42,576 bases of DNA from Dorea sp. (GTDB taxonomy: Bacteria; Bacillota; Clostridia; Lachnospirales; Lachnospiraceae): assembly GCA_016295505.1 (NCBI GenBank), contig JAEDLC010000004.1:1-42576 (forward strand), read 5' to 3'. A program made the position numbers and the translations under genes. Each line of letters starts with the position of its first letter. Position 1 is the first letter of the stretch. Positions 4,952-15,715 of this stretch are shown here, in pieces. Below the pieces are notes generated by a model that saw nothing but the letters and a program-made list of their open reading frames with translations, was not told where the DNA came from and made no database searches.

Positions 4952-4983
4952 GGATGAAATTGAGCAAAGCAGAGGGAGCAGAC

Positions 4984-6216
4984 ATGAAGATTCGGCAGAT
5001 AACAGATAATAAAAAATTATATATGGACCTGTTGCTGTTGGCTGATCCACAGGAAAATATGATCGATGCATATCTGGATCAGGGAGAAATGTTTCTTCTT
5101 GAAGAAAACGGAGAAGCAAAGACGGTTGCAGTAGTCATGCTTTATAAAAACCGGAAGTGTGAACTGAAGAATATTGCAACTGTCGAGACACAGCAGGGCA
5201 AGGGATATGGAAAGTATATGATACATTTTCTGTGTGAGCACTACAGCAGTCTGTGTGATATGATGTACGTCGGTACGGGAAACACCAGAAAAAACATTGG
5301 ATTTTATGAAAAATGCGGATTCGAAAATTCACATATTGTGATAGATTATTTTGTGAAAAATTACAGGGAACCGATCTATGATGAGGGTGTGCGGCTTACA
5401 GATATGATCTATCTGAAAAAAAGGCTGGAATCGGAGGTGGATGTGAAAAAGGTTGTGGATCTGGCACTGGAGGCAGGAAGGATTCTGTTGAAAAACGGCG
5501 CAGAGATCTTTCGTGTGGAAGAGACGATCACCAGGATCTGCCATCGTTTTCATGTAGAGCATATCGATGTGTTTATGCTCAGTCACGGTATATTTGTCAG
5601 TGCAGAAAATGGAATGGAAGAGACATATACAAAGGTAAAGCCAATTCCGTTATCGGCATCTCATCTTGGAATCGTTGCGGAAGTAAATGCGCTTTCCAGA
5701 GAGATTGAAGCTGGTCATATGGGAATTGATGAGGCATCTGAAAAGTTAAAAGAAATTGATAAGATGCCTTCTAAAAATGGATATTTTCAGATTGTTGCTG
5801 CGGGAATCGCGAGTGGAACGTTTGGATATATGCTGGGTGCAACGGAATCTGAGAGTATGATGGCCTTTTTTATCGGCTGTATTCTGTATGTATGGGTTCT
5901 GTTCAGTAAAAAGCATGGATTGTCCAAGATGCTTGTAAATATAGCAGGAGGTGTTATCATCACCACTCTTGCAATATGCTTCAGGCATCTGGCTCATATG
6001 GAAGAACTGCGGATTGACGGAATGATCATCGGAGGAATCATGCCTCTGGTCCCGGGACTGGCTTTCGTGAATGCAATCCGGGATATTGCGGACAGTGATT
6101 TTTTGTCCGGAACCGTGCGTATGATAGATGCGATTCTGGTATTTGTTTACATTGCGATCGGGGTGGGAGTGACACTCAGCATCTATAATAATATGATAGG
6201 GGGATTATTGCCATGA
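4984..6216 (+). CDS. GNAT acetyltransferase fused in frame to threonine/serine exporter N-terminal domain
   Basis: As read, one 410-residue protein. Residues 1-150 are a GNAT N-acetyltransferase with the acetyl-CoA loop QQGKGYGK and the later FYEKCGF motif. Residues 154-410 are the ThrE/YjjP N-terminal family (PF06738 type): a cytoplasmic segment with KNGAEIFRVEETI, then about five membrane helices. Start 4984 is chosen over 4954 because GAGGGAG lies just upstream. The junction is suspicious. An A7 tract at 5416-5422 precedes an internal SD (GGAGG, 5433-5437) and an in-frame GTG at 5443, exactly where stand-alone ThrE N-domain proteins begin (VKKVVDLALEAGRILLKNGAE). With six A's the acetyltransferase would stop at TGA 5444-5446, overlapping that GTG. 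So this may really be two translationally coupled genes, with an indel, sequencing error or slippage at A7. The 3' end overlaps the next gene by ATGA. Confidence 0.8.
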   Translation: MKIRQITDNKKLYMDLLLLADPQENMIDAYLDQGEMFLLEENGEAKTVAVVMLYKNRKCELKNIATVETQQGKGYGKYMIHFLCEHYSSLCDMMYVGTGNTRKNIGFYEKCGFENSHIVIDYFVKNYREPIYDEGVRLTDMIYLKKRLESEVDVKKVVDLALEAGRILLKNGAEIFRVEETITRICHRFHVEHIDVFMLSHGIFVSAENGMEETYTKVKPIPLSASHLGIVAEVNALSREIEAGHMGIDEASEKLKEIDKMPSKNGYFQIVAAGIASGTFGYMLGATESESMMAFFIGCILYVWVLFSKKHGLSKMLVNIAGGVIITTLAICFRHLAHMEELRIDGMIIGGIMPLVPGLAFVNAIRDIADSDFLSGTVRMIDAILVFVYIAIGVGVTLSIYNNMIGGLLP

Positions 6217-10419: not shown

Positions 10420-10525
10420 GGATGTTTTCAGGAGAATGACTGTAAAACTGAAAACAGTAGCCAAAATGCTAAAAATGTTGTAGAATGAAGCTATGTATAA
10501 TCGCATACATAAGGAGGAACATATA

Positions 10526-11527
10526 ATGCAAAGAAAGAGGATATTAAGTGTGCTGGCAGTTATGCTGGTATGCATTTTCGCATTATCTGCATGCAAGAAG
10601 CAGGCAGGCAAGCCGGTAGATAATGCGATTACAGAAGATACAGAGGAAGAAAAAGAAGAAGAAGACGTACTGGTATTTGGATTTTCGGCAATTGATATGG
10701 AAAATCCATATTTTATAACATTAGAGAAGGCAATTAAGGAAGTATTGGATGAAAGTGAGTATCAGTTGATCACAAAGGATCCTGCATCAGATGTAGAGCT
10801 TCAGGAACAGCAGATTCAGGAGATGATAGATGAAGGAATTGATGCAATCTTTCTGTGTCCGGTTGATTGGGAAGCAATCACTCCGTCCCTGGAGGCTCTG
10901 AAGGAAGCGGGTGTGAAGATTATCAATGTAGACACGCAGGTAAAAGAAATGGATTATGTAGATGCGTACATAGGCTCGGATAATCAGAAAGCCGGAAGAA
11001 TCTGCGGAGAAGACCTGATTGAAAAGTGTCCGGATGGCGGAAAGATCGCTATTCTGGAGGCGACTGCTCAGAATTCAGTCAATGACCGTATCACGGGATT
11101 TGAAGAGGCTATTGCCAAAGCAGAGAATGGCTTTGAAGTGGTAGCAAGAGAGAATACCGACGGAAGTTTTGAAAAGGGGCTGGAAGGTGCGAAAAAGATC
11201 ATAAGTGAGAATCCGGATCTGACTGCGATCATGTGTGGAAATGACCAGACAGCGGTGGCGGCTAAGACAGCACTCAACCTTGCCGGGATGGATAAAGTTC
11301 TGATATACGGTGTGGATGGGTCGCCGGATATCAAGAAGGAACTGAAGAAAACCGGCAGCCAGATTGCAGGGACTGCAGCGCAATCACCGATCAATATTGG
11401 AAAGACCGCTGCTAAAGTGGCAATCTGTATGATGAATGGAAAAGACTATGAAAAAGAAACATATGAAGATGTATTTATGATTGATGAAAATAATGTTGAT
11501 ATGTACGGTGTAGATGGATGGCAATAG
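10526..11527 (+). CDS. Sugar-binding lipoprotein (periplasmic-binding protein, RbsB-like)
   Basis: Extracytoplasmic substrate-binding lipoprotein, 333 residues. The N-terminus has basic residues (MQRKR), a hydrophobic core and the lipobox LSAC with acylated Cys23. The mature part is the Peripla_BP_4/RbsB family: FGFSAIDMENPYFITLEKAI at the start of lobe 1, then AIFLCPVDWEAITPSLEAL, and the lobe-2 segment AIMCGNDQTAVAAKTAL. Relatives bind ribose, galactose or other monosaccharides. Start 10526 is preferred over 10493 because AAGGAGG lies nine bases upstream and it exposes the signal peptide. No ABC permease or ATPase is adjacent; a degenerate GH13 protein follows 67 bases later with no terminator between. 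It may serve as an orphan receptor or share a remote transporter. Confidence 0.88.
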   Translation: MQRKRILSVLAVMLVCIFALSACKKQAGKPVDNAITEDTEEEKEEEDVLVFGFSAIDMENPYFITLEKAIKEVLDESEYQLITKDPASDVELQEQQIQEMIDEGIDAIFLCPVDWEAITPSLEALKEAGVKIINVDTQVKEMDYVDAYIGSDNQKAGRICGEDLIEKCPDGGKIAILEATAQNSVNDRITGFEEAIAKAENGFEVVARENTDGSFEKGLEGAKKIISENPDLTAIMCGNDQTAVAAKTALNLAGMDKVLIYGVDGSPDIKKELKKTGSQIAGTAAQSPINIGKTAAKVAICMMNGKDYEKETYEDVFMIDENNVDMYGVDGWQ

Positions 11528-11594: not shown

Positions 11595-13286
11595 ATGAAA
11601 CAGATACAGGGACAACCATTACCAATAGGAGTTACAGTGAACGATAATCAGGTGAACTTTGCAGTAGCGGTTCCGAAAAACAGGGAGTGTCGGCTGCTTT
11701 TGTACCGGAAAGGGGAGCAAAAGCCATGTGATGAATATGAGATGGAGTTGTCCGTGGGAGAAGTGCGTGCGCTTGCGTTGCAGGAGATAGATCCATTGGA
11801 ATATGAATACAATTATGAAGTGGACGGAGAGGTCATGGTCGATCCATATGCCAGAGCCATTGCAGGCAGAGAAGAGTGGCAGAATAAAAGAAATGTGCAG
11901 GAGCATGAAGTAAGAGGCGTTCTGGTAAATGATACTTACGACTGGGAAGAGGACCGGCCGCTTCGGCTCCCATATCATCAGGTGATTGCCTACAGCCTTC
12001 ATGTGCGCGGATTTACCAGACATTCCTCCTCACAGGTGAAGCATAAGGGAACATTTCAGGGACTGATTGAAAAGCTTCCTTATCTCTGTGAGCTTGGAAT
12101 CAATCAGATCCACTGTATGCCGGTCTATGAGTTTGAAGAATGTACGCCAAACTGCAATTACTGGGGATATGGAAGTGCGTATTATTTTGCACCGAAGAGT
12201 GCATATTCCAGTACCGGAGATGGAGTGAATGGTCTTAAAGATATGGTAAAGGCATGTCACAGGTGCGGAATCGAGGTTGTTCTCGAGATGCCGTTTTCAG
12301 ATGATATCTCCAGACAGATGATGATTGAATGTCTGCGATATTATGTAATGCAGTATCATATTGACGGATTTATCGTAAACCCGGTGCTTCTGTCCGTAGA
12401 TGAACTTCGGGAAGATCCGATCCTCAAAGGTACAAAGCTGCTGGTACATCAGCTGGGATTTCAGACAGCCATGCGCCGTTTTTTAAAGGGCGATGAAGGC
12501 ATGATCAATGATGTGATATACTGGCTGAAGCATCATGCTGAAAAACAGGATTCGTTCAACAGTATTTCCGGTCAGAATGGATTTACTCTTAATGACCTGG
12601 TATCATACGACGGAAAGCATAATGAAGCCAATGGAGAAAATAACCGGGATGGTTCGGATTATAATTTCAGCTGGAACTGTGGAGCGGAGGGGCCGACAAG
12701 GAAAAAGGCGGTTCTGGAGCTTCGAAAAAAACAGATTCGCAATGCATATTTTCTGGTGCTTCTGTCTCAGGGTACGCCGTGTATTCTTGCAGGAGACGAG
12801 TTTGCAAATACGCAGAAAGGCAATAATAATGCATATTGTCAGGATAATCCAATTGGCTGGCTGGACTGGAAAAAACTGGAGAAAGAAAAAGAGCTGTATG
12901 AGTTTGTCCGCGACCTGATCCACATCCGCAAGAAGTATCCGATCTTTGCACCGGAAAAAGAACTGTTGGGAATCGACCGTTCATCCTGTGGAGTGCCGGA
13001 TGTGTCTTATCATGGGGAAAATGCATGGCAGGTGCAGTCAGAGGTATCAAGCAGACAGCTTGGTGTATATTACAGTGGCGCATATATGGACAGTGAAGAC
13101 TGGTTTGTTGCTTATAATATGCATTGGCTGGAGCATTCCTTTGCGATCCCGGCATTGCCAAAGGGGAAAAAATGGTATCTGATGGCATCTACAGATGAGG
13201 GTGTTCTTGATGAACCTGTATTGCTGGAGGGTCAGCGTATCATTGATATTAAAGAGAGGACGATTATGGTTATGATCGCCCGGTAG
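11595..13286 (+). CDS. Catalytically degenerate GH13 glycogen-debranching-like protein
   Basis: 563-residue homologue of GlgX/isoamylase/pullulanase. The fold signature is strong: N-terminal CBM48-like beta domain to about residue 125, a barrel starting at YSLHVRGFTRHSSS, and the debranching hallmark KHNEANGENNRDG. Yet the catalytic sites are changed. Where active enzymes have GFRxD, this has GFIVN (Asn262 in place of the nucleophile Asp). The acid/base Glu of the KLIAEPW-type strand is His285 (KLLVH). The HD pair before GFTLNDLVSY is Gln327-Asn328. The DVVxNH region reads EVVLEMPFS. So hydrolytic activity is not expected; a glucan-binding, regulatory or chaperone-like role is more likely, but unproven. 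SD AGGAGG is seven bases before ATG 11595. No signal peptide, so cytoplasmic. The frame is intact, arguing for selection. Confidence 0.85.
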   Translation: MKQIQGQPLPIGVTVNDNQVNFAVAVPKNRECRLLLYRKGEQKPCDEYEMELSVGEVRALALQEIDPLEYEYNYEVDGEVMVDPYARAIAGREEWQNKRNVQEHEVRGVLVNDTYDWEEDRPLRLPYHQVIAYSLHVRGFTRHSSSQVKHKGTFQGLIEKLPYLCELGINQIHCMPVYEFEECTPNCNYWGYGSAYYFAPKSAYSSTGDGVNGLKDMVKACHRCGIEVVLEMPFSDDISRQMMIECLRYYVMQYHIDGFIVNPVLLSVDELREDPILKGTKLLVHQLGFQTAMRRFLKGDEGMINDVIYWLKHHAEKQDSFNSISGQNGFTLNDLVSYDGKHNEANGENNRDGSDYNFSWNCGAEGPTRKKAVLELRKKQIRNAYFLVLLSQGTPCILAGDEFANTQKGNNNAYCQDNPIGWLDWKKLEKEKELYEFVRDLIHIRKKYPIFAPEKELLGIDRSSCGVPDVSYHGENAWQVQSEVSSRQLGVYYSGAYMDSEDWFVAYNMHWLEHSFAIPALPKGKKWYLMASTDEGVLDEPVLLEGQRIIDIKERTIMVMIAR

Positions 13287-13313: not shown

Positions 13314-13862
13314 ATGAAAGCATGGCAGCATTTGCGTACAATTAATCATCATAAATATCTGGTAATGAAACATTGTTTTAAGGTGGGGTTATACAGACAG
13401 GGACTGCTCCATGATCTGTCCAAATATTCACCGACAGAGTTCTGGGTGGGATGCAGATACTATCAGGGCAACAGAAGTCCGAATAATGCAGAACGGGAGG
13501 CTACCGGATATTCGAAGGCGTGGCTTCATCATAAAGGAAGAAATAAGCATCATTATGAGTATTGGATTGATTACAGTGTGAATCCGGAGGAGGGAATCGT
13601 GGGGCAGAAGATGCCAACCAGATATGTCATTGAGATGTTTATGGACCGGATCGCGGCTTCCAAGACTTATCAGGGAGATCAGTACAGAGATTCTCATCCC
13701 CTGGAATATTATGAGCAGGGTGCGGCAAAGCTGGGCAATATGATCCATCCGGAGACTGCGGCTCTGTTACATAAGCTGCTTAAAATGCTGGCAGAAGAGG
13801 GAGAAGAAAAAACATTTTCCTACATCCGAAAAAAGATTTTGAAAAATAATAAAAAAATGTAA
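13314..13862 (+). CDS. DUF5662 family protein
   Basis: Uncharacterised 182-residue protein that I match to the DUF5662 family. It is rich in histidine and aromatic residues; HDLSKYSPTEFW near residues 33-44 and HHKGRNKHHYEYWID near 71-85 look like a metal-binding set reminiscent of HD-type hydrolases, and MPTRYVIEMFMDRIAASKTYQ follows. No signal peptide or membrane helix. It starts 27 bases after the GH13-like gene with a poor SD (GGAATGAGG), so it is probably cotranscribed with it. Function unknown; nucleotide phosphohydrolase activity is speculation. Confidence 0.75.
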   Translation: MKAWQHLRTINHHKYLVMKHCFKVGLYRQGLLHDLSKYSPTEFWVGCRYYQGNRSPNNAEREATGYSKAWLHHKGRNKHHYEYWIDYSVNPEEGIVGQKMPTRYVIEMFMDRIAASKTYQGDQYRDSHPLEYYEQGAAKLGNMIHPETAALLHKLLKMLAEEGEEKTFSYIRKKILKNNKKM

Positions 13863-13899: not shown

Positions 13900-13931
13900 A
13901 TATTTCGTCAGCGCGAGAGCGACAGACAAAT

Positions 13932-14016
13932 GCGGAAGTGTCGGAACTGGCAGACGAGCAAGACTAAGGATCTTGTGATCAATGCGATCGTGTGGGTTCA
14001 AGTCCCATCTTCCGCA
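13932..14016 (+). tRNA. tRNA-Leu (anticodon AAG)
   Basis: 85-base class II tRNA. The acceptor arm pairs GCGGAAG with CTTCCGC and the discriminator base is A. The D-arm contains AACTGGCAGAC. The anticodon stem is CAAGA/TCTTG with loop CTAAGGA, giving anticodon AAG at 13965-13967. A long variable arm (near TGATC-AATGC-GATCG) marks it as Leu or Ser, and the T-loop is TTCAAGT. CCA is not encoded (GTA follows). It reads CUU, and CUC if A34 is deaminated to inosine. It has its own promoter and terminator. Confidence 0.95.
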
Positions 14017-14018
14017 GT

Positions 14019-14047: not shown

Positions 14048-14158
14048 TGTGATTTTGTATGAATGAAGTATTATATAGTGTATAATAAAGGAAAGGGTTA
14101 CTAAAACGGATTAAGACGGAAATTAAAGGAAGTGTTTCATAGCGAGGAGGAATGGATG

Positions 14159-15715
14159 ATGTTAGAGAAGCTGGATCTTACGAAGTCGATGGGAAAGTCG
14201 GAATATAAGGAGAAGATGGTGGAACTTGAGGCCAGGATCGGAAGACTTCAGAGGGAGTGCAGAAGTCTTGGGATTCCGGTTATGATCGCTTTTGAAGGAT
14301 ATGGTGCCTCCGGGAAGGGACTGCAGATCGGAGAACTGATTCAGGCGCTGGATCCGAGAGGATTTGAAGTATATGCTGTGAAGAATGAGACGAAAGAGGA
14401 GCAGATGCATCCTTTTATGTGGAGATTCTGGACAAAGCTTCCGGAAAAGGGCAGGATTGCAATCTATGACAGCAGCTGGTACCGGAAGGTTCTGGTGGAT
14501 CGGTTTGATAAGAAGACGAAAAAGAAAGATCTTGACAGGGCGTTTCAGTCGATCTGTGCTTTTGAAGAGCAGCTGACAGCAGACGGAATGGTGATCATCA
14601 AGATATTCCTGGCGATTGATCAGGAAGAGCAGAAGCGAAGGTTTGAAAGACTTTCGGAATCTCCGGAAACCGCGTGGAGAGTCAGCAAGGGGGACTGGAA
14701 ACGGAATCAGAAGTTTGAAAAGTATCAGGCAATGAATGAAGAGATGCTGAACCGGACGGATACACAGTATGCACCGTGGCATATTGTGGAGGCAACAGAC
14801 CGAAGATATGCGACCGCCAGAATCTATGCTGTCGTGGCTGACCGGTTGGAAGAACAGGTGAAGCTGGTAAAAGAGAGAATGGAACAGGAAAAGGTACAGC
14901 AAGATCGGGGGACAGAGAATCCGGAAGTAGAACGAGAGGCGTCCGGTCAGGAAGGGCCGGAACAGGAACGGGATCAGAGGGAATCCATTCTTGCAAAAGC
15001 TGATCTGAGTCTGTCCTACTCAAAAGAGGAATATAAGAAGCGGCTGATGGAGCTGCAGAAGCGGATGGAATTGCTCCATGGAGAGCTGTACCGGAAAAGG
15101 ATTCCGGTTGTGATCGGTTTTGAAGGATGGGATGCAGGAGGAAAAGGCGGAGCGATCAAGCGTCTGACGAGAAAGATGGATCCCAGAGGATATGTGGTTC
15201 ATCCGACGGCTTCTCCGACGGAGAGAGAAAAGGCGCACCATTATCTGTGGCGTTTCTGGACCGATATGCCAAAAGCAGGACACGTTACGATATTTGACCG
15301 TACCTGGTACGGACGGGTGATGGTTGAGCGAATTGAAGGTTTCTGTACAAAGCAGGAATGGCAGAGGGCTTATAAAGAGATCAATGATATGGAGAGAGAT
15401 CTTACGGATGCAGGAGCAATTGTTCTGAAGTTCTGGATGCAGATTGACAGGGATGAGCAGGAGCGAAGATTCAAGGCGAGACAGCAGAATCCGGAAAAAC
15501 AATGGAAAATTACGGATGAGGACTGGAGAAACCGGGAGAAGTGGGATCAGTATGAAGAAGCGGTAAATGAGATGCTGATCCGGACATCTACACCGAAAGC
15601 TCCATGGATCGTTGTAGAGGGAAACTGTAAATATTATGCAAGAATTAAAGTGCTTGAAACGGTAGTAGAGGCGATTGAAGCACGTCTGGAACAGGAAAGG
15701 AGCGACCGCGCATGA
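14159..15715 (+). CDS. pap: Tandem PPK2-domain polyphosphate:AMP phosphotransferase
   Basis: Two PPK2 (polyphosphate kinase 2) domains fused in 518 residues, the architecture of polyphosphate:AMP phosphotransferases, which make ADP from AMP and polyphosphate. The C-terminal domain has the intact P-loop GWDAGGKGG (residues 323-331) and Walker B region FDRTWY (379-384). The N-terminal domain is altered: its loop is GYGASGKG (47-54), with Gly49 replacing the conserved Asp, and DSSWY (104-108) replaces D-R-T-W-Y. So probably only the C-terminal half is catalytic, as known for two-domain relatives. A Glu/Gln-rich linker spans about 240-280. SD GAGGAGG supports 14156 or 14159; the upstream ATG 14132 would place the SD inside the gene. 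The stop overlaps dgt as ATGA. Confidence 0.88.
   Translation: MLEKLDLTKSMGKSEYKEKMVELEARIGRLQRECRSLGIPVMIAFEGYGASGKGLQIGELIQALDPRGFEVYAVKNETKEEQMHPFMWRFWTKLPEKGRIAIYDSSWYRKVLVDRFDKKTKKKDLDRAFQSICAFEEQLTADGMVIIKIFLAIDQEEQKRRFERLSESPETAWRVSKGDWKRNQKFEKYQAMNEEMLNRTDTQYAPWHIVEATDRRYATARIYAVVADRLEEQVKLVKERMEQEKVQQDRGTENPEVEREASGQEGPEQERDQRESILAKADLSLSYSKEEYKKRLMELQKRMELLHGELYRKRIPVVIGFEGWDAGGKGGAIKRLTRKMDPRGYVVHPTASPTEREKAHHYLWRFWTDMPKAGHVTIFDRTWYGRVMVERIEGFCTKQEWQRAYKEINDMERDLTDAGAIVLKFWMQIDRDEQERRFKARQQNPEKQWKITDEDWRNREKWDQYEEAVNEMLIRTSTPKAPWIVVEGNCKYYARIKVLETVVEAIEARLEQERSDRA

Follow-up and report, generated by a model that had tools for sequence, protein, structure and literature searches.

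Genomic Context and Predicted Fold

The window analyzed here, a stretch of 42,576 nucleotides from a Dorea sp. genome (contig JAEDLC010000004.1), carries on its forward strand a gene for a putative pseudo-debranching protein of the GlgX/isoamylase fold (11595..13286; 563 amino acids). The reading frame is open over 563 codons from ATG to stop, and the protein contains the debranching hallmark KHNEANGENNRDG; both features had been described in a first-pass annotation and are borne out. GlgX, TreX, and isoamylase debranching enzymes belong to NCBIfam TIGR02100 and, as described in PMC12510319, to CAZy family GH13_11. The window protein has the isoamylase fold of this class, and its TIGR02100 score of 338.1 bits lies below the curated cut-off of 640.9. 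Its predicted model aligns with GlgX/isoamylase chains starting at residue 1, and its nearest structural matches are chains of isoamylase 1, several of them out of ISA1-ISA2 complexes. These alignments support the fold within the CBM48-plus-barrel architecture proposed earlier, whereas Pfam gave no CBM48 match in the protein at E values up to 1; the N-terminal domain can be called CBM48-like only in that the model aligns with GlgX/isoamylase chains.

The gene is flanked by two others on the same strand. A sugar-binding lipoprotein of the Peripla_BP_4 type is encoded 67 bp upstream (10493..11527), its likelier start being an inner ATG at 10526 behind AAGGAGG, and a DUF5662 gene lies downstream (13314..13862). 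Three further features of the window were recorded: a single frame at 4954-6216 that places a GNAT acetyltransferase domain ahead of a ThrE exporter domain, the window's only tRNA gene (tRNA-Leu with anticodon AAG, 13931-14017), and a PPK2 protein at 14132-15715 whose two matched stretches correspond to a tandem polyphosphate kinase 2.

Loss of the Catalytic Site in the Window Protein

Compared with GlgX, TreX, and isoamylase, the window protein lacks the catalytic acids and the His and Arg of the -1 site. In alignments to solved enzymes, N262 (codon AAC, 12378..12380, forward strand) aligns with TreX chain residue 363, the nucleophile Asp, and Q327-N328 (12573..12578, forward) falls on the His-Asp pair (transition-state stabilizer). 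The acid/base Glu position is occupied by H285 (CAT, 12447..12449, forward) in alignments to TreX, GlgX, ISA1, and ten same-family GlgX sequences; the Chlamydomonas ISA1 alignment stops one residue short of H285, at the catalytic Glu. I260 takes the position of the Arg two residues before the nucleophile, and D236 (12300..12302, forward) that of the active-site His after the third strand (His271 in S. venezuelae GlgX). Relative to the ten same-family GlgX proteins, a loop of 40-odd residues behind this His is missing as well, and four motifs have shifted: GFRFD to GFIVN, the TKLIAEAWD type to TKLLVHQLG, CHDGFTL to GQNGFTL, and LDVV[FL]NH to LEMPFSD.

The catalytic Asp-Glu-Asp and His that mark the GlgX class are absent from the protein. 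The first-pass annotation had read Asn262, His285, and Gln327-Asn328 as replacements of the catalytic Asp, Glu, and His-Asp and had described the DVVxNH strand as lost. The alignment with debranching structures agrees on both points and places non-acids on all three catalytic positions. No Asp or Glu lies within two residues of position 262, 285, or 328, and the same is true of L001, which is 94% identical.

Distribution and Descent

The family surveyed was that of the nearest genome, G001, which carries the locus of Faecalicatena contorta ET51; its group code, f1, is read as Lachnospiraceae. Used alone as query, the window protein matches 86 of 299 genomes of this group at 1e-100. A family profile at 1e-120 extends the matches to 233 of the 299 Lachnospiraceae genomes, corresponding to 232 of 298 genera, and to 193 of 246 good-quality genomes. 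Four best candidates were scored per genome, and each carrier has one match except G257, which has two. No internal stops occur among the matches listed in this search. The pseudo form is present in most sampled Lachnospiraceae genera and is not a local oddity. A survey of the class (293 genomes, 1e-60) gave 17 matches, of which 11 are pseudo forms, all from Lachnospiraceae, and six are true GlgX from other families with all catalytic acids present. At this depth, from which more distant forms would escape, the pseudo form is seen only in Lachnospiraceae.

Conservation was followed in 130 members, namely L002 and one protein from each of 129 genomes. These include 126 of the 233 carriers, leaving 107 carriers outside the set; a further four members came from other searches, and some members are partial (e.g., L156 and L160). 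Pseudo forms and GlgX were separated by the [VI]V[FL]NH strand, which builds the absence of the active-site His into the set; neither the tree nor any other column depends on this split. A quick, unrooted tree of 43 pseudo rows (the window protein and 42 of the 130 members, rows of 560 amino acids or fewer having been dropped beforehand) and 20 GlgX rows shows one dividing branch, with an SH-aLRT support of 100 and a length of 0.78. In an unrooted tree, this single branch is consistent with a single loss. One member, L175 of G284, carries the only long C-terminal extension in the set, 66 residues past the reference, which may be a fusion or a run-on frame; we take it to resemble the start of a methylguanine-DNA methyltransferase.

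Conservation of Catalytic and Glucan-Contact Positions

None of the 130 members holds all three catalytic acids. Two acids are present in one member (L200), one acid in 36, and none in 93. The nucleophile Asp (Asp342 in S. venezuelae GlgX) is kept in a single member (L025), the acid/base Glu (Glu378) in 13, and the second Asp (Asp450) in 24, while His449 has an equivalent in 58 and His271, by construction of the split, in none. All 20 control GlgX proteins have intact Asp, Glu, and His-Asp columns, including one whose nucleophile was missed by the motif expression and whose aligned column reads Asp. Because 0 of 130 relatives and 20 of 20 GlgX hold the three acids, the loss is more than chance. 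L025 (from G006), which has Arg at the acid/base position and Thr in place of the second Asp, is broken at this site despite its nucleophile Asp, as judged from its residues. L199 (from G162) is the sole member in which each catalytic position has an acid no more than two residues away.

The residues that replaced the catalytic ones are not fixed across the family. Sixteen different residues occur at position 262, 17 at 285, and nine at 328. Ranked by entropy, columns 236, 260, 262, 285, 327, and 328 are more variable than 82, 54, 71, 96, 60, and 47% of 559 columns, respectively; the same six columns show zero variation in the GlgX controls. In variability, the dead-site columns roughly match or exceed ordinary ones. 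In the alignment of the 17 nearest relatives, N262 and H285 do not vary; of the three positions (N262, H285, and N328) that the earlier annotation had proposed to test for conservation, the first two are thus conserved locally, but all three vary over the 130 members. The earlier suggestion that Asp-to-Asn changes preserve the shape of the pocket fails for the family as a whole, and this explanation was rejected at that scale.

Positions that contact glucan present a different picture. The contact residues listed in PMC9530166 for S. venezuelae GlgX in complex with acarbose were mapped through the alignment to solved enzymes, in which the chain number equals the number in that paper plus 3. 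Trp222 and Tyr224 correspond to W190 and Y192 (codons 190-192, 12162..12170, forward strand), with Trp in 129 of 130 members and Tyr in 119, the remaining 11 having Phe. Glu470 corresponds to E348 (12636..12638, forward; 129/130), and Asn534 and Tyr536 to N412 (129/130) and Y414 (125/130; codons 412-414, 12828..12836, forward). These five columns are more variable than just 0 to 11% of the 559 columns. Of the other contacts given in PMC9530166, Trp380 has been replaced by Leu in the window protein, and 31 of the 130 members have Trp and 36 have Phe at this position; Arg212 falls within an unaligned stretch. W190, Y192, and N412 are invariant in the active GlgX controls too, and the fold itself may hold them. 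The E348 column contains Glu in only one of the 20 control GlgX proteins and Trp in 17, so its role as a contact derives solely from the Streptomyces enzyme; E348 also lies within a low-confidence stretch of the predicted model. Since contact residues are retained, glucan binding is plausible, and the pattern fits a cleft that would no longer hydrolyze and would keep part of the glucan platform. The Streptomyces GlgX is regulated by c-di-GMP, which, according to PMC9530166, is bound through ExR(X)6R and other residues.

The gene as a whole is under purifying selection, as the first-pass annotation had proposed to check. Comparison with the F. contorta copy yields a dN of 0.026, a dS of 0.269, and an omega of 0.098, and seven other genes of the locus have omega values of 0.012-0.070. 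The pseudo gene is constrained, though least so of the eight compared. Decaying frames in orthologues, which would have counted against a retained pseudoenzyme, do not occur among the matches listed; these intact frames and the low omega led to the rejection of an artefact or frameshift.

Proposed Function and Competing Explanations

We read the protein as a GlgX/isoamylase-fold pseudoenzyme, predicted to be inactive, with a likely role in binding alpha-glucan and in regulating or scaffolding the turnover of glycogen, and we put the probability of this reading at roughly one half. Inactive in debranching, the protein would hold glycogen chains in its remaining cleft and could either recruit other glycogen enzymes or shield branches. 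Phosphorylase, branching enzyme, and pullulanase are candidate partners. Since GlgX is missing from the majority of the carriers tested, it cannot be the partner in every case. In the window's clade, the pseudo gene probably shares a transcript with the co-directional lipoprotein gene, whose product may link sugar outside the cell to the glycogen process; this coupling is the weakest step of the explanation and a clade-specific addition to it. The near-universal presence of GlgA and GlgD in Lachnospiraceae (78 and 76 of 80 genomes; 40/40 carriers for both, and 38/40 and 36/40 non-carriers, respectively) makes co-occurrence with glycogen synthesis uninformative as a clue.

The best-surviving alternative, which we nevertheless regard as unlikely, is that the protein is the non-catalytic subunit of a hetero-oligomer with active GlgX, as ISA2 is with ISA1. 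The closeness of the predicted model to isoamylase 1 chains, including those of ISA1-ISA2 complexes, agrees with it, as does the distribution of GlgX. A GlgX of the Lachnospiraceae type occurs in 48 of 120 carriers versus 3 of 40 non-carriers (Fisher 6.6e-5, and 0.0015 for the second carrier sample alone, with kinship between genomes ignored). The first 40 carriers were chosen from among those that match the window protein best, and 21 of them have GlgX; the next 80 were drawn from the remaining carriers, and 27 have it, one as a partial gene (G043). The non-carriers tested were 40 of 66, several of them incomplete genomes, and one GlgX (G049) is split over two contigs. Gene order provides further support. 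In G127 (L215, 5807-11738), GlgX, an ABC-F-like gene, and the pseudo gene form one same-strand run, with a 4 bp overlap followed by a spacing of 98 bp; this is the clearest genomic link between the active and the dead paralogue. In G134, GlgX lies 1.6 kb from the pseudo gene in convergent orientation. At least 2 of the 48 genomes thus have GlgX within 5 kb of the pseudo gene, versus 0.15 expected, although the P value of 0.010 is post hoc. Against a fixed partnership, 72 of the 120 carriers have no same-family GlgX at the thresholds used. An obligate GlgX partner was rejected on this count, and, because GlgX is found in just 48 of 120 carriers, the protein cannot simply be a GlgX subunit.

A sugar-responsive regulator acting with the upstream lipoprotein, for example in transport control and not in glycogen metabolism, is less probable still. 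The first-pass annotation had suggested a pairing with the lipoprotein, and in the near clade this stands: 28 of the 32 nearest loci have a same-strand Peripla_BP_4 lipoprotein gene 11-119 bp upstream, and the DUF5662 gene is syntenic downstream in 29 of 32. L003 lies inside L001, and counting the two as one place gives 27/31 and 28/31, respectively. A TraX-like gene sometimes stands between the pseudo gene and the DUF5662 gene. A Pfam scan of 20 window genes found no ABC permease, and the lipoprotein looks like an orphan, which agrees with this alternative. The pairing is missing from most of Lachnospiraceae, however: the lipoprotein family occurs in only 3 of 22 wider loci, the nearest relative being among these three, and a family-wide link was rejected. 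The lipoprotein, with a signal peptide and lipobox recognizable by eye, should moreover be outside the cell, whereas the pseudo protein has no signal peptide by eye. In five distant loci (L065, L068, L069, L070, and L077), the gene directly upstream of the pseudo gene is ABC-F-like, and other distant loci have TraX-, LuxS-, or exonuclease-like genes nearby, all of these being names that we presume from likeness. Most of the 22 wider neighborhoods are without any glycogen gene, which tells against the main, glycogen-related reading.

It is quite improbable that the protein works as an enzyme through a rebuilt active site, in the manner of the GH13 amylase BmaN1. The two share a GH13 barrel with altered catalytic positions, and BmaN1 is active despite its aberrant triad (PMC5347038); among the 130 family members, L199 alone has acids close enough to all three positions to recall such an arrangement. 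In BmaN1, as described in PMC5347038, Lys and His replace two Asp, and the acid/base Glu and a shifted, neighboring Asp are kept, whereas the window protein has neither the acid/base Glu nor an Asp beside the nucleophile position, nor acids near any catalytic position. The replacements also change from clade to clade, unlike a conserved rebuilt site. A decaying, functionless relic, as the lost catalytic site and the highest omega of the eight genes might suggest, is hardly credible given an omega of 0.098, intact frames among the matches listed over very divergent genera, and sharply conserved non-catalytic motifs.

Relation to Known Systems and Significance

The reading of a glycogen-binding pseudoenzyme has its closest working analogue, in a different lineage, in plant ISA2. 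According to PMC12510319, ISA2 is non-catalytic through changed catalytic residues, acts as a partner of ISA1 in glucan binding, and is thought to retain its glucan-binding site. ISA2 further has a pair of Trp at a secondary site for glucan, SBS1. Like ISA2 as presented there, the window protein is a long-retained paralogue of debranching fold that has lost the nucleophile, kept in 1 of 130 members, together with other catalytic residues. In contrast to the situation of ISA2, an active GlgX as a potential partner is lacking in most carriers tested. The window sequence is also nearer to ISA1 (4.3e-73) than to ISA2 (5.3e-40), as is the family profile (7.6e-122 versus 5.5e-65). Common descent with ISA2 is not indicated by these similarities, on which, with no plant rows in the tree, the judgment was made; because the sequence is nearer ISA1, the two losses appear to be separate. 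A bolder proposal, which we hold tentatively and consider somewhat short of even odds, is that Lachnospiraceae evolved, a single time, a counterpart of ISA2, a dedicated non-catalytic glycogen-binding protein that outnumbers true GlgX in the family, would shape or guard glycogen by holding chains without cutting them, and in one clade would be wired to an extracellular sugar-binding lipoprotein.

GlgD, the GlgC partner described for Firmicutes as non-catalytic, offers a second comparison within the same bacteria. Both would be duplicated, presumably non-catalytic proteins of the glycogen pathway. They differ in that GlgD has an unrelated fold, serves another step, and adjoins GlgC, whereas the pseudo gene stands alone.

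A description of a pseudo-debranching family was not found in the open-licence literature. The family bears on annotation, as the name "alpha-amylase family glycosyl hydrolase" or counts of glgX homologues in gut bacteria would over-credit debranching activity for a protein predicted to be inactive. For Blautia obeum, two glgX homologues are given in a review (PMC10395257), and the pseudo protein may be one of the two, since P0033, a relative that is 69% identical to the window protein, bears this species name. Why plants retain a non-catalytic isoamylase is, according to PMC12510319, not understood. Lachnospiraceae would provide a culturable system in which the role of a non-catalytic debranching fold may be studied alone, across hundreds of genera and often without GlgX.
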